Source of the DNA: Coffea arabica
Taxonomy: Eukaryota; Streptophyta; Magnoliopsida; Gentianales; Rubiaceae
Assembly (NCBI RefSeq): GCF_036785885.1
Contig: NC_092323.1
Span: 7,696,501-7,760,500 of the forward strand
Reading direction: 5' to 3'
Length of the DNA stretch: 64,000 bases
Shown: positions 34,686 through 63,640 of the stretch, piece after piece
Layout of the letters: each line of letters opens with the position of its first letter
Position numbering within the stretch: position 1 is the first letter of the stretch
The notes under the pieces: model-generated
What the model saw: the letters and a program-made list of their open reading frames with translations, nothing else
The model's database searches: none
What the model was told of the DNA's origin: nothing
Translations under genes and position numbers: made by a program

Positions 34686-35095
34686 AGGGCTGAAAACTAA
34701 TTGATCGCGAGCGGCTCCGATACGAGGGCCACTCGAGCTCGGTCAACATCGAACTCAACTCGAGTTCGATGTTGATTAAATCGAACTCGAGTTCGAACTC
34801 CAATTCAAAAATACTAAGAACTCGATTATATATATATTTATTTATTTATTTTAATAGTAAATTTGCATATATATTTCTAATATTTTATTATTTATTAAAA
34901 AAATAATTATTTTATTTATTTTTTAAAAATAAAATAATTATTTTTTTAAGCTCGAGCTTGACTAGAATTTGAGTCGAACTCTAGCTCGAGTTTGACATTT
35001 TGAGTTTGTCGAGTTCGAACATCATAAAATTATGTCGAGACTCGATTGAATTAGTTCGAATCTCGACTTGGTTCGGCTCATTTAGACCCCTCATT
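34686..35095. repeat. MITE-like foldback element rich in CGAGCTCGA, copy 2
   Basis: It shares the AT-rich core (TTTAATAGTAAATT, ATTTCTAATATTTTATTATT, TTTTTTAAAAATAAAA) and the palindromic GAGTTCGA/CGAGCTTGA arms with copy 1 at 5903-6278. Its ends are less clear. Confidence 0.58.
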
Positions 35096-35381
35096 GTAAA
35101 CCTTTAATAACTTTCAATTCTTGTGATAAGAAAGCTTAGAGGCCGTTCGCATTTTAGAGTTTTTGTTGAAAGTTTTTTAGAATATTTTTATGATACATTT
35201 TTAGACTGTATATTTATTATACAATCATCACATCCTTATAATACTTTTTTTTTTTTTTAAAGGAGGTTTTTAATTTAAGATTCACTGCTTATAATCCCTT
35301 TCTCCGGTCATAATTGTACCTCACTAGTGATACAGTCACATAGCAATAACACATGGTTTTATTGAACCATAACATGAAAAC

Positions 35382-35842
35382 CAGTGGCGGATTTAAGATG
35401 GGGCACTGGGGGCCCCCAAAAAATTTCTATAATATCTATACAATTTTGATATAATTTTAAGTGTATTCCCGGAGTTTTCTTAGAAATGATGTAAAAGAAT
35501 TACGTGATTCTTTAAGTTAGTTCATAACAGTGACGGATTTAAGGTCACTGCCCCCCTTAAATTCCTATAGTATCCACAGAATTTTGATATAATTTTAAAT
35601 ACGCTCCCGGAGTTTTCTTAGGATGGAAGCGAAAGAATTATGTGATCTTTTAAATTCGTTTATGAACTAATATTCTAAAAAGGTATGCAAGTTACAAAGT
35701 TCCATTTGAAGTAAATTAAAATAAACTTTTCATTTCAACTTATCGGTGAATATTTTTTTACTTAAAAAACTAGAAAAATAATAGGTAAAAAATTTTAGTG
35801 TTGCTTTTGCCCCACTGAGAATTTTTTCTGGCTCCGCCACTG
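35382..35842. mobile_element. 461-bp element with CAGTGGCGGA termini and an internal tandem duplication
   Basis: CAGTGGCGGA at the left and its inverse TCCGCCACTG at the right. The flanks CATGAAAAC (left) and CATGAAACT (right) look like a slightly decayed 8-9 bp target duplication. A segment of about 135 bases beginning GTGGCGGATTTAAG is repeated from about 35527 as GTGACGGATTTAAG, followed in both copies by TTTTGATATAATTTTAA and CCCGGAGTTTTCTTA. It is hAT- or Mutator-like; there is no transposase. Confidence 0.72.
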
Positions 35843-36422
35843 CATGAAACTCCTTTGACTGGCGCTAAACTACCTTTGAATCTAATCTCAGCAATTTCGA
35901 TGAGGCATGGAAATTATTCACCTCAGATTGTACAAGAAATTCTAGCCTGTAGGAAAATTTCCTAAGCTTTTGAGGTGTATACAGGAGACGAACATACACT
36001 CTGCTGATTAGCCAAAGGTATTCTTTTGTCATAAACCGGGTAGTAATACTTTTACTTTCCCCATGTCCAACGATATTCAGACTGGTATGCGAGAATAATA
36101 ACCGGAACAAGATCATTTTCCTACTCCTTCAATTTGCTGACGGTCCAAAGGTTGTAAAACACATGCTAGAAATTTTTTTTCCCCTTATTAATTCTTGGAC
36201 TCTGCCGCTTGATACCTAAATCCATCCAGAACTCTTTAGTCTATATTAATGGTGGAAGGAGGCCTCACAAATCGCAAGTCAACAACTTGTCCTGGTCTGA
36301 TTCCTGTTCAGTGGGGTAATTCTTAAATTTTGGCCGCCAAAGTTCGTTCGATATTTATTGTCCAATTATTAACTCCTCTTTACATTCCCTTCCTCACTCT
36401 TGCGCTCTACTCTTGCTCTACT

Positions 36423-37236
36423 ATGAAGAGCCAGTTCCTCCCGGAGACACCCTTTCCATCTGTGTACAACATCTTACTACTGATTCTCTTCATTCAATTC
36501 CCTTCCATTTTAGGCAACAACACCGAATGGTACACCAGCTGCACCAATTTGTTCAGTTGCGGGGGAATCAGCGGCGTTGATTACCCTTTCTGGGGTGGCA
36601 ACAGGCCTCAAGAATGCGGTCATCCTGGACTAGAGCTCATGTGCGAGGATAGCACTCCAACCATGGAGATTATGAACGTGAAATATCGGGTTCTTCAAGT
36701 CAATCCCAGTTCTCAAATCCTCAGAATCACCAGAAATGAATTTGCAATCAAGGATATCTGTCCAGAGAAATTGGTGAACACCACCCTCGATGCCAATCTT
36801 TTCGAGTATGCTTCGGGATACGTCAATCTTACGATCCAATACGGCTGCCCCTCTCTGAATATTCCCGTCCCGGCTCCAATAGCCTGTAATATCAACGGAA
36901 TCACTTACCGGAACGTTTACGTCGTTCCGGGGGCACAAGGGCCTGGAACTTGTCGGGCGAGCATATTTTTTCCAATTCATAGCACAGCTTTTGGAGGAAT
37001 TACTGAAGAGTTGTCAATTCTGGGGCAAGTAATGGTCAGCGGATTTGAAGTGCGATGGAAAGTGGATAGTATGCAATGCAATGAGTGCAGGAATTCGAAT
37101 GGCAGGTGCGGCTATGACCTCAAATCCAATCAATTTACTTGCCTATGTCCCGGAAATCAAGCCTCTGGTCACTATGGATGCACAAGCACATCAAGTGATG
37201 AAAATGGTAGCCCGCACGAGTCCATGGTTGTTTCAG
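36423..37236 (+). CDS. LRK10L-type ectodomain exon A (GUB_WAK_bind + WAK_assoc)
   Basis: A first exon of 271 codons plus one base. The ATG at 36423 begins a signal peptide of about 31 residues (NILLLILFIQFPSILG). The GUB_WAK_bind pattern follows: CTNLFSCGGISGVDYPFWGG, GHPGLELMCE. After several N-glycosylation sites comes the WAK_assoc C-terminus (CNECRNSNGRCGYD, CLCPG). The exon ends TCA G|GTACGC, phase 1. No kinase follows before the next ectodomain exon at 39587, so either this is a kinase-less remnant or it splices over 8.2 kb to the kinase exons starting at 45449. Read straight through, the frame stops at 37257-37259. Proteins of this type sit at the plasma membrane facing the cell wall; the wheat founder Lrk10 lies at a leaf-rust resistance locus. 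Confidence 0.85.
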
Positions 37237-39586
37237 GTACGCATTGGTTTACATGTTAATTATGACTATGAATCAACAAGTAAATTAAATGCCATGATCA
37301 GTCCATTTTACTAGATGATAGTTTTAAAAGTTTCGGATTTAAAAGGGTACGGTTGCCAAACAAAGAAAGTCTCAACTGGACTCATATGCGCAAGGACGTC
37401 GGGTTCTGTTTTTCTAGATTTTGATCATATTTCTACAGAGGAACCAGAATCATTGCTGAATTTAATTCTATCGTATCTCTCCCCGTTTCTTGATGCTTCG
37501 TGTTGGTTCCCTATACATGTCACTAGATTTTGAAAAATTTATACAGTAGTATGTGTTTTGATTTGTCTGTTTGTGTACTAAAACAGACGATGGTATTTCT
37601 TTTTCTTTTTCTGAAGAGTTGGGGTTTAGTTGGTAGGTAGGAGAAGGGCTGTTTGAGCCGTGGCGAAATAAATTCGAGTTTTAAGGTCATCGCTTTCATG
37701 GCGTAAGAGGAGCAGTCCATTCATAACCAAAAAACTAGCATTGCCTTCCTATGCTACGAGTGGTTCCCGATAGGACCCCAAGAAATGGTTGATGACACTC
37801 ACAGGACAAGTTGCTAGGTTGGGCTGAAACCATCTCGATCCTGACTTAGTATTTTTAAAAGTTCAACTTTTAGCCAAAATGGATTTTTTTTTAAGTGTAA
37901 ATTTATGAATCAAAATGGAACTCTATATTCAACAGAACTATTTTTTTCCCCCTTGGCTTATGATTATATATATAAAAAAAAAGGTATTCAAGTAGCTAAT
38001 GGTCTTGCTTTTAGTTGGTCTGGATTTTATAAAATCCGGTTACAAAAACTTAATGTTACTCCCTAGGTAATTATAAATTTTAACTTTTTTTGTCATTAAA
38101 AAAATTTATTATGAAAATATAAAAATAACTAAAAATATTATCATCAAAACTAATTATTCAAAAATCAAAATCCATAATTAGTTAAAATAATCAACCGAAA
38201 ATAGGCCTAACGTGCTTTGGATGCTAAATGAATGCATTAAAACTATTGGATGGCACACGTCCAAAATAAATTAAAAAAAAAAAAAAAGAAGAACCATAAG
38301 TAGAAGCCCAATAACAAACACTATCGAAAATGTGTGTGTAAAAAAAAAATGTCCAAAACACTAATACCGCACAAATATGCACTCTGTATAAAACTTCAAC
38401 AACTGATTGGGCCTTGGCCCAATATAACCTAAAAAGTACTCTAGAAAATTATGCATCTCATAAATAAGTTGGGGCGTGTGGCATTTGGGAAGACGCCATA
38501 TGTCACATGTGCATTTGCTGGAGTTGGGGATACACGTGTCATAGTCCTGAGAGCCTTTAAAAGTTGTCGGCTTTTAAGGTATTCTAGGGGTTTAGGTTTG
38601 CCTAACAAATTTCTTGCTTTCGTAAGAAAATGTCAGAAAGAAACTTTGCTGGGGTTGTCTGGGTTGGGTTGGTGGGCCCTCTTTAGGGTTTAGTAGCGGC
38701 TGCCCACGGGGCTTGGCCCTTGTCGGGGTTTCTATCCCACATCGGTACTGGGGGTTGGGGTTTGGGTAGATAAGTCTCCTGAGAGCCTTCAAAAGTTGCC
38801 GGCTTTTGAAGGTATTCTCGGAGCTTAGGTTTGTCTTACAAATTTCTTGCTTTCGTAAGAAAATGTCAGAAAAAAACTCACCAAGGTTGGAAGCTGGGAC
38901 CCCTTTCTCGATTAAATGCTGGCAAAAAACTAAGGGAGTCATTTTCATATCGACTAGCTTGGGGAAACTACCTCATATAGATTCCAGAATTGCATTGTAG
39001 TAACAAGTGAAAGAAGCAGTTCTGGGATCTGATAAGAGTAGCGTAAATCAATAATCAATGAAACTACTACCACTCTGCCTCCTCTTATTAACTTTTTTTT
39101 TTTCTCGCAAAAAATCAATCCATTAGTAATCTCACGTACCCAAAAGTTTTTTCTCCTCACACTCACTAACCAATAATAACAATAGTTTAAAAATGATGAT
39201 TACCAATAAGCTTTTCTGTAAACTTGGAGGGAGGTTTATAATGAACTATCAAAAGTCTCAGAGAGGTTTCTGTATACTTAATTTTTTATTTAGAGCTATA
39301 GCACCTTATTCTCCCGTCCACTACAGGGTTGAATTCAGATGGTTGTGACGCACTACCAAAATGTCAAAATGTTCAACATCACTTTCTTTCTTTGCACTCA
39401 TTTCTTCAATATTGAAAATTAGCTACACTGTTCTATCGACTAATAATGGCATTACTTGATCACCCCCAAAGAATTCCATCATCTTCTCTTAAATTTGCCT
39501 CCCCTCCCAACAACTACATCAGTGGCTAGCGATTTCCTTTGCAAAATAAATTTGTTCTCTTCATGATATCTTCTCCTCCAAAATAA
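37237..39586. other. Spacer between ectodomain exons A and B (possible intron)
   Basis: No kinase sequence is present. It holds AT-rich DNA and a pair of direct repeats of about 100 bases (38545-38645 and 38777-38880) separated by a segment with an RTCCCACATCG motif. It would be intron if exon A joins the distant kinase exons. Confidence 0.5.
38545..38880 (+). repeat. Direct repeat pair of about 100 bases
   Basis: Two copies (38545-38645 and 38777-38880) share TCCTGAGAGCCTT, AAAAGTTG, GGCTTTT and a nearly identical AAATTTCTTGCTTTCGTAAG tract. The spacer of about 130 bases is GC-richer than its surroundings and contains ATCCCACATCG. It could be a TRIM-like or other short retroelement; no primer-binding site was found. 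Confidence 0.55.
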
Positions 39587-40370
39587 ATGAAATCCCACAG
39601 CCCTTTACAGTCGTTCCCCACTGTTCTCTGTTTTCTCGCCTCTAGTATACTTCTTCAACTTCATCCCCTTTCAAGTAATCCGGCGGAATTTTATGAGACC
39701 TGTGGGAATGAATTCAGCTGCGGCAACATCACCGGAATAGGATATCCTTTCCGGGGATACGAAGATCCCGCATACTGTGGCTATCCCGGGCTAGAGCTAA
39801 GATGCGATCACAGCAGTAATGTTACAAGACTCGATATCAAGAACATGACATTTTGGGTCTTGGATATCCATCCAACCAGCCAGATTTTGAGGGTTGCTAG
39901 AGAAGACGTGATGGAGAACAACTGTCCTACTGATTTAGTAAACATGACTTTGGATTACACCCTGTTTGATTACTCCGCGAGTTATATAAACGTCACGTTT
40001 CTCTATGGCTGCCTAGTCAATGTACCCAATGTTCTTTTCTCATGTGGGAACAATAGTCTGTCTGTATTGCCTGGAGACCTTGGTGCTGGACTGTGTAAGG
40101 CCAGTGTGGTATATCCGGCACTTCAAACGGGTGATAGAGGATCCTTTAATTTTACGGGCTTGGATCAAGTCCTCCGGCAAGGGTTCGACATCAGATGGAT
40201 AGTGAATACTGGTATATGCAATGAGTGCACCAGGTCCGGTGGAAGGTGTGGGTACGGTGGTGGCACAAATCAAAATCAAAATCAAACTACTTGTTTCTGC
40301 CCAAATCCGCCCTATGTCCAATCTGTTGCTTGCTCATCAAATTCATCACCACCACCTTCACCTTCTAGAG
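39587..40370 (+). CDS. LRK10L-type ectodomain exon B (GUB_WAK_bind + WAK_assoc)
   Basis: 261 codons plus one base, from ATG 39587 to AGA G|GTACGC, phase 1. It has a signal peptide (VLCFLASSILLQLHPLSS), a GUB_WAK_bind region (CGNEFSCGNITGIGYPF, YCGYPGLELRC), several NxS/T sites and a WAK_assoc end (CNECTRSGGRCGYGGG, then a Pro/Ser-rich linker). The frame runs only to a stop at 40388-40390 if unspliced. The donor hexamer GTACGC is identical to that of exon A, and the phase matches the kinase exon. Like A, it has no kinase of its own before the next ectodomain exon. Confidence 0.86.
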
Positions 40371-41588
40371 GTACGCAAGCAAGCAAGTAGTAATAGAAGT
40401 AGTGGTATTTGCTTTTTAACTGTTTAGTCCTGATCATATCTTGATTTGCCGTGATCACGAGAGAAAACCCATCTTCTCCTAATTTGCATGGATGAGTTTT
40501 CTAGTGGAATAGGTTCTTTTTTTAGGTGATCGTCTCGTCTGCGCTCTTGTCATGGTTTACCAATATTGTTAGGCTTGCCGATACTTTGCCCTTTTGAGTT
40601 TTACCAAATAACGTTAGGCATTTTTTCAGATGGTTAGTGTCTGGCTTGCGCGGTGACCATTTGCTTATTAGCTTTATTTGACCTAATAGGAAGCGAAGAC
40701 TGGGCCACGTTATTGACTAATAATGCAGCAAAATAGAACTATAGAGCAATAGACACAAAAAAGCTTCTTCTAGTAGGCAACATTTTTGTTGTCTTTTTTC
40801 AAATAATGAGCAATCTTAACAGGTTTACCCCTCCCAGCCGTTTCGACTCCCAATTCCTCAGAAAACATCTTCCATTCCCACCTTGTTTCCTTCTACGATT
40901 CAACTTTTTCCGAAGGAAAGGAGTTTTATTTTTCTCCAATCCTTCCTGGATTTGCAATGTCTCGACAATTGTCTATTCTTTAATAGACTAAAGTTAGGAA
41001 AATAACGTCGTGGAACTCCTGCGTCACTCCTAAGGCCCCTTTTCTGGGATTTCATATTTCCCATTGACTTTGATCTTCCAAGAAAAAAACCAAAAAAAGA
41101 AAGAAAAAAGGACACGGTTTCTGCGCGTCTGTTGCAGCTATCACTATTCTAATTGCTGAAGCTGCTGTTCTCATTGATATCGTCCAAGGACCGGTAAAAG
41201 TCTTGACTTACCAAAACTTGTTGACCGTAACCCAAGTGCAAAAATTCCACATTTGTATGTTTCTTCAAAGATGCCACATCTTTTGTCCAGTTGTTTAGGC
41301 TATCAATTAATATTCCGCGTAACCCTTTTGTAACTACAGGTTCTCGGATTAGTTTAGACCGAGTCAGCCACTTTTTCATTCCAACGGAAGCTTCCATTCA
41401 TTTCAAAAACTTAACCAAAAAAAGACAGGCTCATCTTAGCCAAAAGCCCCAAAGGTCAAGTTCTTCAAGCTAAAACGACTTCTATGAAATATCTCTCGTG
41501 ATCTATTCCCACCAAACGAACTGGGAGGAACATTTCCAACCTGCAAACTCTTCCTAGTTCCCTACCCTTCTCTTCTCTCTGTCCAACG
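40371..41588. other. Spacer between ectodomain exons B and C (possible intron and promoter)
   Basis: No kinase or other gene is visible. The part just upstream of 41589 is probably the promoter and leader of exon C. Confidence 0.5.
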
Positions 41589-42342
41589 ATGCATTCCGAG
41601 GATCGCCTTCGAACCCTTTCGTTCTTTCTGACGATCACCAGCTTCACTTTACTTCACATCCCGAAATCTTTCAGCCAGGATCAACAACAATTTGAAACCT
41701 GCAGCGAGCCGTTTCGGTGTGGAAATATTGACTTTACTTATCCATTCTGGGGTGGGGATCGCCCGGAGAGTTGTGGCTATCCAGGTTTCAATCTAAGCTG
41801 CCAAGGGAACGTCCCTCGGTTTACGGTTGGCCCCGTTGCATACCGGATCCTCTCCTCTGTAGATACCTCATCTCAAACTCTTACCGTTGCCAGAGACGAT
41901 CTGTGGGATAATAATTGTCCTCAGTATCTCCATAACACCACCTTGAATTTCAACATCTTCAGTTACCCCAGCCAGGTCGATAACATCACTCTGTTCTATA
42001 ATTGCACCCAGCTTCCTACCAACATCCTTCAACAGCTAAATCAGTTTCCTTGCACCGTCAATGGTACCGCACCAACTACCAATTTTTTCCAGACAAGTAG
42101 TGCAGCCTTTTGGACTTCTTGTACTGATAACATCAGGGTTCCCATTAATCGCGCCGCATTTCCGAGTCTCTTCAGTAATACGGCCATATTCAATACTACG
42201 GATCTTCGAACCGCACTTACCACCGGCTTTCCTTTGCGATATGAAGCAAATAATACAGCCTGCAATAATTGCTCTAACACAGGTGGCCGGTGCGGGTATG
42301 ACACTCGTTCCAACTCATTTGCCTGCTATCCCAATAGAAATG
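41589..42342 (+). CDS. LRK10L-type ectodomain exon C (GUB_WAK_bind + WAK_assoc)
   Basis: 251 codons plus one base, ATG 41589 to AAT G|GTACGC, phase 1. It has a signal peptide (TLSFFLTITSFTLLHIPKSFS), GUB_WAK_bind (CSEPFRCGNIDFTYPFWGG, SCGYPGFNLSCQ), many N-glycosylation sites and WAK_assoc (CNNCSNTGGRCGYD). This is the last intact ectodomain exon before the kinase. Joined to exons 45449-45478, 45541-45918 and 46014-46942 it gives one open frame of 696 residues, a normal LRK10L length. The implied intron is 3.1 kb and contains pseudo-exon D. The broken copy at 63.1 kb is most like this exon. Confidence 0.87.
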
Positions 42343-44106
42343 GTACGCCCTCGTCATCCAAATCTTTAGTGTCAATCAGCTTGTGTAGTGGTCCTGTTTG
42401 TTCTTTTAATCTCATGGCCAATTGATCGGTCTTTCTCTTCATTTTGCTAGGCTGTTAGTTATAGATCTCTCCTTCTATATGGCATCAGGGGTTGTTCTCA
42501 TTATATTATTTCCTGAAAGCTTGGTTAGGTTAGGTATTCTAGACTTGTTAGTTAGTTTGTGGTATCTTCTTGGCTTCGCTTTCTTTCTCCTGATCTCCTT
42601 TATTTTTAACTTGTTACATGGCGTGCTCATCCATCACATTTGCAGATACTTTTCCATTATTATGACATAAATCGAGAAATATGAAGTTTTATGCAGATGA
42701 CCATTTGTTGTAGGATTTCAATGCTATGCATTCTTTTTTTGGTTGTTTCTGGTTCTTTGAATGAAAATGGTTAGTCCTCGTAAACCAAATGGTCCGATCT
42801 TGGGTTTTAGCAGATGTTGGGTGGATGAAGTTCAAAAGATAATTTGCTCTTAGATAGGCGTTATAGCCTTTCTTCTGCGTTTGATCTGAATATTTTCCTA
42901 TATTCAGATTTCATCAGGAGAAAAGCTTTGGTGCTATCCTTCAATCTCGTGCATTCTTTACATCATCAAAATTCCAGCCAAAAAAAAAAGAAAAGAAAAG
43001 AAAAAAATAGTTCTTGGTAGTTTGCTGCGTTTGATCTGATTTTTTCTAATAAAAAGAGTGCAACTTTTGATAAAATATATTAGTAGTACAGATAAAAGGA
43101 ATGTCAAAATGTGTGGGCGATTAATCTTTTAAAAAAATCATTGGACTACTGCTGACTCTTTTTTTTTCCATAAATCAAAACGGATATCAGTTAGCTATCA
43201 TTCGTAGTGGTTAGGGCTGTCAACGGTCCGGGTCTAGACCGTACCCGGACCGGATCCGTCAAATTTATCCGGGTATGGGTAGGGATTTAATTCTGTTATC
43301 CGGACCCGGATCCGGATCCGTTTTGTCAAACAAAAAATGGATCGGATACGGAATATAGTATTTCGACCCGTATTGGACTCGGATCTGGATATAAATGGAT
43401 TAATAATTTAAAATATATATATTTATTAATATAATTTGATTAGAATGATGTATTTGAGTAATCAATATAATTGGACCCGGATCCTAATCAATATAATTTG
43501 ATTAGGGTGATGTATTTGAGTAAGGTTAATTTGATTTCTTTTCTTATTTGATTTTTTTTGTATTAGTTAGAAATTAGTTTATAAATATATGTTTTTTTTC
43601 TCATTTTTGTTAGGAATTATAAATTTTGTTAGTTTTTTTTCGAGTAGACCCGGATCTAGATCCCGGACCCGTCGGATCCGGATCCGATATAGTGTACCGG
43701 GTCCGATCTGGAATAATGAATTTCGACCCGGACCGGCCCGTTGACAGGCCTAGTAGTAGTAGAATTTTCTTCGTCGTCTTCCCTCCTCCAATAAACAATT
43801 TTTTGACCCGACAAGACCATTCTCATCCATGATTTGCATTAAGAAATAGAGAGAAAGTTGTCCTTTTCTCTTCCCCACAAAACATTCATTGCACTGCTCA
43901 TGCACCGCGTCGGTCAACCAAAGACAGCTCCTCCCCGCCTTCCACCTGCCGCCTTCCGCCTTCTTGAACCCTTCAATCAACCACTCCAAAACAACTCTTG
44001 GGTAAAACAAAAGCAGTCTCCCCTCCCCCACCCCCCCCCCCCCGCGGGCCCCCAACCACACACACACACACCAACACCCCGGGGATCCCTGCACCCTTTT
44101 ACCAAA
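42343..44106. other. Spacer between ectodomain exons C and D
   Basis: AT-rich spacer containing a 541-bp hAT-like element (43212-43752). Just before exon D there is an unusual C-rich tract (about 44020-44045) followed by a short CA repeat. Confidence 0.55.
43212..43752. mobile_element. 541-bp hAT-like element with TAGGGCTGTCAACGG ends
   Basis: Left end TAGGGCTGTCAACGG, right end CCGTTGACAGGCCTA (14 of 15 inverted matches). The flanks are GTAGTGGT (43204-43211) and GTAGTAGT (43753-43760), an 8-bp target duplication with one change. The arms repeat GGACCCGGATCCGGATCC-like palindromes. There is no transposase. Confidence 0.8.
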
Positions 44107-44930
44107 ATGCCATCTCCTCCCTCCTCTCTCACTTGCAGTCCCGCTCTCCTGTTCCCAAATGCCTTTCACTCTCACTCTCATTCAATCTCTCCACGTCACA
44201 CCAATTATCTGCTTCGCTTCTTTACGTTGTCGTTTTGCGATGGCTTCTCCCCCACTGCCCCCACTTTCATTAACTGCGATAAAACCTTCAACTGCGGCTC
44301 CATCAGCAACGTCACCTTCCCCTTCACCGGGGGAGACCGTCCCGACCACTGTGGACTCCCCGAGTTCAGACTCTCCTGCCAGCAGCCCAACAATGTCGCC
44401 GAGTTGATTCACAACTCCGTCACTTAGCGAGTCCTCCAACTCGATCAGACCCTCAAATGATTGACCCTTTCCCGCTCGGACCTCTACAACAACACCTGCC
44501 CATCCCATTTCACCAATGCCACCCTCAATTCGACCTTCTTCTCCTTCGGCGACCAGGACGACGATGCTTTGAGTATAATCTACGGATGCAATTCCTCGGC
44601 TATGTCTATTAAGCCCCAGAATTTATTCAGTTGTAGTATTCCCGGAGTGAACTTTACGGATGCTTATTACATAGTCGGGCCGATTCCCAGTGACCCCATT
44701 TTGAGATTCATTAATTGCAGCGTCAGTGTTACGGTGCCAATACTGAGGAGTGCTGGGGCGAGGCTCACGAGTAGTGAGATAAGTCTTTCTGAGGCTTTAA
44801 CGCAGGGTTTTAGCGTAAATTATAGCGACCCGTCTGAGAATAATTGCTCCGAGTGTACCCGGGTCGGTGGGCAATGCGGGTTTGATTCGGATTTGGGTCA
44901 GCCCGTCTGCGTTTGTGGGGATAGGTTCTG
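44107..44930 (+). pseudogene. LRK10L-type ectodomain exon D, disrupted by two stop codons
   Basis: The frame from ATG 44107 encodes an ectodomain of the same family: CDKTFNCGSISNVTFPFTGG, HCGLPEFRLSCQ, then YNNTCPSHFTNATLNS and, near the end, CSECTRVGGQCGFD. It is interrupted by TAG at 44425-44427 and TGA at 44458-44460, both in frame, in the conserved segment linking the two halves (VTxRVLQLDQTLKxLTLSRS). The signal-peptide region is also atypical, and the end near 44930 lacks a phase-1 GTACGC donor like those of A-C; the nearest, GATAG|GTTCTG, is phase 2. It lies closest to the kinase and was presumably its original partner. Sequencing error is possible but would have to occur twice. Confidence 0.82.
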
Positions 44931-45448
44931 TGCATTGGCACCTCCCCTCTTTCTGAAGATAGTAAAAATGCTTCTGCAGCATTACAAGGTTGTAGTTTTG
45001 GTAAATTATTTGACTGCCTGGTTCCAAGACTCGGTTTTTGAATGTGTAGAAATTTAGAAATGGTAAAGCTTATTAGCGTTGGCTGACACTTGAATTTTGG
45101 ATGTCATTATTTTGATTTGTTTATGCTGATCTTGAATGATTTATGATGCTTGAAAGCGCTTGCATTAGTTCTTACGTGTCATGAGAAAATTATGCTGATG
45201 GTTTCACTAATCCCTGATTGTTGATGGTTTTATGATCATCCGCTACAACCACCCCTCTTAGGTTTATCAATGTGGTTATCCATTTTATAGCATCTGCACA
45301 TATTAGTGCTCTGCTACTGTGCCTGAACTTTCTTTTGTTCATATGTCCCCTATAAGACTGGTTTATCACTTGGCATCCATCATCATTATGTGGTTTTGTC
45401 TATCATATGTCTCAGTGCTAATGATTCTTGGTGTTTTGATTCTTGTAG

Positions 45449-46942
45449 GCAGTAAAAGTGGTCCCGGCACTCCCGTAGGTACTGCCTCATTCTAACTATA
45501 ATAACAAACTCAACTTATGCATCTGTGGTTATTGTCTCAGAGCAAAATCTTAACATTCTTGTTGTGTTCTCAGTTCTTGCTATAGTAGGTGCAGTCCTTG
45601 CTGGTGTGGGTCTTGGTTGGTTGATTTTCTGGTGTAGGCAACGGAGGAGACGGCTTGCTGCTGCTAAAGCTGCAGAGAGTTACCAAACTCAGAGCAAGGA
45701 TAATTCAACTACTCCTGCTAGCAAAGCCCCTACTTCTGTGCCTTCAACTGTTTTCACCAAAAGCATCCCTTCTTATCCTTCCTCAAAAACTGAATTTGGA
45801 AAAGAAAGCTCCTATTTTGGTGTCCAGGTCTTTAGCTACGGCGAACTTGAGGAAGCCACAGATGGTTTTTCTCAATCTAGAGAACTTGGAGATGGTGGCT
45901 TTGGCGCTGTATATTATGGTATGAACGCAAAACCTCATCCTTCATTTTTAATGAGCTAGTAGCAACAACCAAAGCATTGACTCCAGGGAATTTGTTTTTT
46001 GAACTTGAATTAGGTGTTCTTACTGATGGCCGCGTTGTTGCAGTCAAGCGGTTATATGAAAATAATTTTAAGCGTGTTGAGCAGTTTATCAATGAAGTTG
46101 AGATCTTGACCCGTTTACGGCATCCAAACCTTGTGACACTATTTGGATGCACATCCAAAAGAAGCCGTGAGCTGTTGCTCGTGTATGAATATATACCAAA
46201 TGGAACTGTGGCTGATCATCTACATGGGAAACGTGCCAGTTCTGGTTTGCTATCTTGGCCTGTCCGACTGAACATAGCCATTGAGACAGCTGATGCATTG
46301 GCTTATCTTCATAAATCAGATATCATACATCGTGATGTCAAAACCAACAACATCCTTCTAGACAATGACTTCCATGTAAAAGTCGCCGATTTTGGGTTAT
46401 CAAGGTTGTTTCCCAACGATGTTACGCATGTATCTACAGCTCCCCAGGGGACACCCGGATACGTTGATCCTGAGTATTATCAATGCTACCAGCTCACTGA
46501 AAAGAGTGATGTTTACAGCTTTGGGGTGGTATTGATTGAACTAATTTCATCGCTGCAAGCTGTTGATACTAACAGGCACCGTCATGATATAAATTTGGCA
46601 AATATGGCCGTCAACAAAATCCAAAACCATACATTACATGAATTGGTAGATTCAAGTCTGGAGTTTGGGACAAATAGCCCTATGAGGAGGATGACAACAT
46701 TAGTGGCTGAGCTAGCTTTTCGGTGTCTGCAGCAGGAGAGAGATATGAGGCCTTCAATGCAAGAAGTAGTGGATGCTCTTCGAGGAATTCAGAATGAAGG
46801 GTTGAGTACTGCAAAGGTGGAGGTGGTGCATATCCTGGTTGATGACGTCGCGCCGCTCAAGGATAATGTTGTCCCTACATCGCCTGATTCAGTTGTTCCT
46901 GATAAGTGGCTTAGCAGCTCGACACCAAATTCAAGCGGGTGA
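45449..46942 (+). CDS. LRK10L-type transmembrane and Ser/Thr kinase exons (shared kinase cassette)
   Basis: Exons 45449-45478 (30 bases), 45541-45918 and 46014-46942. All start in phase 1, so they accept the phase-1 donors of ectodomain exons A, B and C. Exon 2 of this set encodes a transmembrane helix (ILVVFSVLAIVGAVLAGVG) and a basic stop-transfer (RQRRRRL), then a Ser/Thr-rich juxtamembrane region. The kinase is complete: Gly loop LGDGGFGAVYYG across the last intron, VAVKRL, an RD-type catalytic loop HRDVKTNNILL, DFGLS, GTPGYVDPEY, and a C-lobe ending RPSMQEVVDALRGI. The whole is typical of LRK10L1.1/1.2 (At1g18390) kinases acting at the plasma membrane. I recall that the Arabidopsis gene makes isoforms from two first exons. 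A start codon is lacking here, so an upstream exon must supply it. Confidence 0.92.
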
Positions 46943-63098: not shown

Positions 63099-63640
63099 AT
63101 GCATCTGAAAGGTTTCCTTCCAACCCTTTCACTCGTTTATACTCACAATCTTCACTTTAATTCACATCCCAAGATCTTTCTGCCAGAATCAGCACTGTGT
63201 AACCTGTGGGGTGCCCTATCAGTGTGGAAATATTACCTTCACTTGTCCTTTCTGGGGTGAGAATCGCCCAAATTCTTGTGGGCTTCCAGGTAAGTTGCCA
63301 AGCTAACATTCCTAGGCTCACGGTTCCACCTGTTTCGCACCGTATCCTCTTCCCTGTGGATACCACCACGAGCACTCTCATTGTTGCCAGAGATGATCTT
63401 TGGAGTGATAACTGTCCTCAATTTCTCCATAACACCACCTTCAATTCCAACTTCTTCAATTATCCTAAGAACGTCTATAACTTAACTCTGTCCTAAAATT
63501 GCACCACTCCTCCGAACCTAGCAGAGCAGCCACCAAATCAGTTTGCTTGCTTGGTGAGGATGGTCATCCCGGCTCGGTTTTACCGAGACGGTCTTCCCGC
63601 CTACAGATGTTTGCGGTGGTCTTATTGGGGCGGCCTTCAT
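63099..63640 (+). pseudogene. Decayed LRK10L-type ectodomain exon E
   Basis: It aligns with ectodomain exon C from the ATG (63099) onward: ACCCTTTCA..., AGATCTTTCTGCCAGAATCA, TGTGGAAATATTACCTTCAC, GATGATCTTTGG and CTCCATAACACCACCTTCAA. A 2-base deletion early in the signal-peptide region and a roughly 8-base loss after CTTCCAGG break the frame. A later in-frame TAA replaces TAT in the conserved YNCT position (about 63494-63496). Past about 63600 the likeness fades. No kinase follows inside the window. Confidence 0.82.

Follow-up and report, generated by a model that had tools for sequence, protein, structure and literature searches.

Candidate alternative first exons encoding the ectodomains of an LRK10L1-type receptor kinase in Coffea arabica

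In Arabidopsis, AtLRK10L1 (At1g18390) is described in passages of two papers (PMC10573068; PMC12479429, citing Shin et al. 2015) as having distinct promoters that yield the transcripts AtLRK10L1.1 and AtLRK10L1.2. A passage of a third (PMC10337256) reports that transcription can start at alternative sites, isoform 1 having a first exon of its own, and Shin et al. 2015, by its title, reports mini-exon alternative splicing in the same genes. As two AtLRK10L1 promoters are in print, at least in those passages, the principle of alternative first exons is already known in this family. The locus considered here lies in a 64,000-nt stretch of Coffea arabica contig C14, referred to as the window (C14:7696501-7760500; assembly of 1.198 Gb in 131 contigs), and carries a tandem array of extracellular-domain (ectodomain) exons, A to D, ahead of one kinase cassette. 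It is probably a single gene for an LRK10L1-type receptor kinase that can begin with one of several first exons, at least two of A, B and C feeding the kinase.

In common with AtLRK10L1, at least two start-bearing ectodomain exons fit one kinase cassette, here in both homoeologues; compared by published description only, there are two alternatives in Arabidopsis, whereas coffee has three intact exons, one dead exon, and block copies before another kinase type. The family name follows an earlier note on the same DNA, and the kinase presumably falls in the LRK10L1 clade together with At1g18390. Neighbouring kinases in the C14 cluster are presumably of the LRK10L2/PR5K-like subfamily, whose ectodomains belong to the same family as those of the array and whose kinase exon likewise starts in phase 1, but whose kinase is only ~36% identical to that of the window.

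Outside plants, the mammalian UGT1A and clustered protocadherin loci have an array of variable first exons ahead of shared constant exons. The coffee locus resembles both in placing variable first exons before shared exons; the proteins are unrelated, and promoter choice in coffee is a prediction. The protocadherin likeness drawn in the earlier note is inexact, as the variable protocadherin exon includes the membrane span, while the coffee span, located by eye, sits in a shared exon. Since the coffee variable exon carries the ectodomain only, UGT1A is the closer analogy. Literature searches, none of them aimed at coffee, gave no match on tandem alternative first exons for the extracellular domains of receptor-like kinases and none on an alternative promoter of LRK10L1; for LRK10 and alternative promoters the one match concerns, by its title, a grape P450, and for alternative first exons and receptor-like kinases the one match is listed as concerning LYM2 in poplar. 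Relative to what is described, the coffee locus adds three intact sensors with a dead fourth, evidence of decay versus preservation, an unusual donor common to divergent loci, and duplication of the array in blocks together with a change of kinase.

Anatomy of the array and its kinase cassette

Exons A, B and C (Table 1) are each open from their own ATG, start with a hydrophobic leader or signal peptide (by eye only), and lie above the Pfam cut-offs for both GUB_WAK_bind and WAK_assoc. Their protein identity to one another is 31–41% (~28–41% with D included), and by tblastn they are the only intact ectodomain exons upstream of the kinase within the window. The earlier note had all three ending in phase 1 at the same donor hexamer and both downstream acceptors starting in phase 1, and the frames, lengths and donors agree. 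When the mini-exon is included, in silico joining of A, B or C to the cassette gives an open product of 716, 706 or 696 residues, as previously stated; when it is skipped, the lengths are 706, 696 or 686, so that 6 of 6 combinations are open. The phase match was dropped as evidence by itself, since the LRK10L2-type kinase exon in stretch L043, beyond the window, also begins in phase 1. The mini-exon, with its splice-site dinucleotides, is found in both homoeologues and before both chimeric kinases described below. A Pfam match of the transmembrane (TM) exon to LapA_dom, at 22.5 bits against a cut-off of 28, was treated as chance.

The cassette does lack a start of its own, as had been claimed: its first methionine is residue 334 of 446, which rules out a kinase made alone. 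The array was also said to hold four complete ectodomains, and this is ruled out, D being broken in both the window and the homoeologue. From a likely original ATG at 44159, the frame of D meets two in-frame stops, TAG at 44425-44427 and TGA at 44458-44460, both of them substitutions; relative to the homoeologue, single bases are missing in the leader and near the end, breaking the frame there, and Pfam detects the two domains in separate pieces. In the homoeologous D' these stops are absent and the frame is broken by two 1-nt gaps and a 7-nt insertion, no lesion common to D and D' being seen in the comparison of both homoeologues. Frame breaks or lost ends also mark the further D copies that were read, namely D2, D3 and D3'. 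Judged by its sequence D is a pseudogene, not a working exon, and with D dead the usable sensors number three rather than four. Because a preserved kinase without its own start stands behind this dead exon, the start very likely comes from A, B or C, and that at least one of the three feeds the kinase can be put forward with high confidence; that all three do so is a more even matter, on which the balance leans modestly in favour.

Expression of such a gene would begin at a promoter before A, B or C, presumably a separate one for each, giving a pre-mRNA that starts with that exon and so encodes a signal peptide and one GUB_WAK/WAK_assoc ectodomain per transcript. The GTACGC donor would then be spliced over ~8.2 (A), 5.1 (B) or 3.1 kb (C) to the phase-1 acceptor of the mini-exon or the TM exon. 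The outcome would be up to three receptors with differing sensors, and perhaps different ligands, but the same kinase, with use or skipping of the mini-exon as a second layer of variation.

Table 1. Exons of the array and chimeric kinases of the downstream block copies (window coordinates unless a contig or stretch is named)
Feature	Location	Strand	Description
Exon A	36423-37236	+	GUB_WAK_bind + WAK_assoc ectodomain; 814 nt; phase 1; donor GTACGC at 37237
Exon B	39587-40370	+	Second ectodomain; 784 nt; phase 1; donor GTACGC at 40371
Exon C	41589-42342	+	Third ectodomain; 754 nt; phase 1; donor GTACGC at 42343
Pseudo-exon D	44107-44988	+	Broken fourth ectodomain; donor position reads GTTGTA
Mini-exon	45449-45478	+	30 nt; phase 1 to phase 1; in frame whether used or skipped
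Transmembrane/juxtamembrane exon	45541-45918	+	Begins in phase 1; no Met; span by eye
Kinase exon	46014-46942	+	Carries the stop codon; Pkinase 155.3 bits (Pfam cut-off 31.7)
Chimeric kinase, C14	L046 2674-3994 (~C14:7783174-7784494)		LRK10L1 mini-exon and start of TM exon fused to LRK10L2-type kinase; open
Chimeric kinase, C13	L048 6675-7995		Same fusion as on C14; open

Preservation between homoeologues and the shared donor

Matches on contigs C1-C22 are mostly paired. As one example, C1 encodes 140 residues that are identical to residues 26-165 of the coffee PDB chain 2efj, a 3,7-dimethylxanthine methyltransferase, and C2 has a close copy. The homoeologue of the C14 locus lies on C13, where one stretch (L039+L040) keeps the whole order A-B-C-D-cassette with ~94% identity across the intervening sequence and with A', B' and C' intact. 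This bears on misassembly, in which the kinase exons of each ectodomain would have been collapsed or lost. Several differences in D are single-base insertions or deletions (indels) in runs of C, and part of the assembly may be redundant, given the four near-identical LRK10L1 kinases on contig C130; the conserved order on C13, the nature of D's two stops as substitutions, and the presence of the array as downstream block copies nevertheless make this explanation most improbable.

The stretches A-B, B-C and C-D provide an indel background for C14 versus C13 of 42 events in 4242 aligned bases, leaving out 223 bases before A that align poorly (33% substitutions) because ~500 bases are missing there on C13. 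Against this background A has no indel (8.1 expected), with 12 substitutions in 814 positions (1.5%) that make it the most conserved ectodomain between homoeologues; B has one, of 6 nt and in frame (7.8 expected), and C none (7.5 expected). D has 6 against 8.7 expected, about the background rate, and each would break the frame alone, although the first, at 44150, falls ahead of the likely start. Both homoeologues keep the TM and kinase exons open, and the 1307 aligned bases of these exons contain no indel. The ratio of nonsynonymous to synonymous divergence (dN/dS) is 0.39 for A, 0.64 for B, 0.31 for the TM exon and 0.20 for the kinase exon, and the synonymous excess is significant for TM and kinase together (P 0.003); by these measures the cassette is under purifying selection.

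Such preservation makes it very unlikely that the locus is simply decaying, the kinase being deprived of ectodomain D and defunct as a gene, with A-C as unrelated leftovers. Broken D in both subgenomes and the many broken copies in tandem clusters of this receptor-kinase family would fit that account; the open, indel-free kinase and TM exons, with dN below dS, and the preserved frames of A-C do not.

The donor offers a further line of evidence. The heptamer GGTACGC occurs 5 times in the window against 1.13 expected, a count reached by 2 of 100 shuffles, and three of these are the ends of A, B and C; relative to the donor consensus, bases +4 and +6 of GTACGC are less usual. The distal ectodomain exon E1 of the divergent paralogous locus on C7 and C8, with only 25–31% protein identity to A, B and C, also ends at GTACGC, and the sequence flanking the hexamer differs on both sides among A, B, C and E1. 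It recurs in A2, C2, C3, C3', B', C' and E1', while the A' donor is GTACGA. In kinase-adjacent ectodomains the donor is different: GTAGTA in D', D2, D3 and D3', GTTGTA in D of the window, and GTAACA in E3 and E3'. GTACGC is no rule for all distal exons, since F1, the distal ectodomain of a C130 copy, has GTAAGT. The persistence of the hexamer beyond its flanks suggests use as a splice site. An ectodomain tree of 20 rows leaves its deep branches unsupported, with 7 of its 17 inner branches open and a flag on the long ones. It does not unite the 12 distal GTACGC rows (3 changes required; united in 0% of the 200 bootstrap trees), and it pairs A with B (93/96).

Several observations weigh against alternative first exons. 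For a plant, an intron of 8.2 kb that passes over two intact first exons is long, and a simple motif scan for promoter boxes found nothing clear or shared in the 400 bases before A, B, C, D, A', B' and C'. The ~500 bases directly upstream of A (35828-36327) are absent before A' on C13 and largely present before the C14 copy A2, which means that the two subgenomes do not share the same sequence ahead of A. The synonymous excess is not significant for A alone (P 0.10) or B alone (P 0.17), and dN/dS for C is 0.98. In the tree, C' of C13 joins C3' of the same contig in preference to C of C14 (support 98/99), which suggests gene conversion within a subgenome, and conversion may account in part for this ratio near 1. 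A 63-codon frame was seen at 42479, and a short unrecognised first exon may lie upstream of the cassette. Past each donor a stop comes soon, after a few residues in A and B and 27 in C, making stand-alone ectodomain proteins possible by read-through.

These short, open tails would suit an arrangement in which only one of A, B and C is a working first exon and the others are tandem duplicates kept as secreted stand-alone ectodomain proteins, as would the stronger conservation of A and the number of ectodomain frames in the genome (150 PF13947 matches scored, with or without a kinase). This is unlikely, as A, B, C and the majority of the copies retain GTACGC, the homoeologues differ in frame beyond the C donor (+1 at 42389) with exon C itself intact, and two promoters are reported for Arabidopsis LRK10L1 in the passages cited above. 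Alternative first exons sharing one cassette, the central proposal of the earlier note, thus gain from the order in the homoeologue, the kept frames of A-C versus the decay of D, the donor at a divergent locus and the preserved startless kinase, with the amendments that the sensors are three instead of four and that the logic was already in print for AtLRK10L1.

Related loci, block copies and a second kinase type

Of 128 scored kinase matches, out of 3419 candidates, eight reach an identity of 68% or more, one each on C14, C13, C7 and C8 and four on C130. The upstream sequence was read for five of the eight, and in every case a single kinase is preceded by three or four ectodomain exons, not all of them intact: A, B, C and broken D on C14; A', B', C' and broken D' on C13; E1, broken E2 and E3 on both C7 and C8; and, in one C130 copy, F1, broken F2 and F3, the last open but without a clear donor. 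The four C130 kinases, all of LRK10L1 type and nearly identical, lie in both orientations within ~54 kb (C130:288256-342461; L013-L016), and may reflect either a recent amplification or redundancy in the assembly.

Further along C14, past the window, the array recurs as two block copies. The first corresponds, with gaps, to window positions 41406-45548 and lies at C14:7761307-7764899, where C2 and D2 are followed by an LRK10L2-type kinase. The second corresponds in pieces to 35009-45665 and lies at C14:7771552-7783387; it comprises A2 (96% protein identity to A, donor kept), a shortened B2, C3 with its donor, a broken D3, the mini-exon and the TM exon, which continues in one open frame into an LRK10L2-type kinase. 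C13 carries C3' (L048 3667-4584), D3', the mini-exon and the same chimera, the two chimeras differing by 5 synonymous and 5 nonsynonymous changes (dN/dS 0.28). No counterpart of A2 on C13 was found among the 150 PF13947 matches or in C13 5970001-5979900, with 5979901-5989000 unread. Unlike the window cassette, the downstream chimera has a methionine at residue 15 of its TM part, so a start of its own is possible.

These copies allow the tentative suggestion, less likely than its negation, that the array is a portable sensor cassette, joined to an LRK10L1 kinase in the window and fused as a block copy to an LRK10L2-type kinase; this fusion, together with C3 and the mini-exon, reads open in both subgenomes. 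Near-identical sensors might then report to two kinase families, with GTACGC marking the distal sensor exons.

Overlapping open frames follow the first block copy at L043 7833-9128, and by eye these presumably belong to a hAT-type transposase. Elsewhere in the window, a broken C-like ectodomain fragment occupies 63116-63604 in two frames (53–63% protein identity to C), and a long open frame on the - strand at 1953-3761 matches WEMBL (weak chloroplast movement under blue light; 120.7 bits).

Automatic annotation could break up a locus of this kind, calling a truncated kinase alongside several genes for receptor-like proteins and missing the receptors. Should the junctions be used, a single plant kinase would have up to three interchangeable sensors, chosen at the first exon, and the locus would provide a natural test of the sensor's contribution with the kinase held constant, with a natural kinase swap adjacent.

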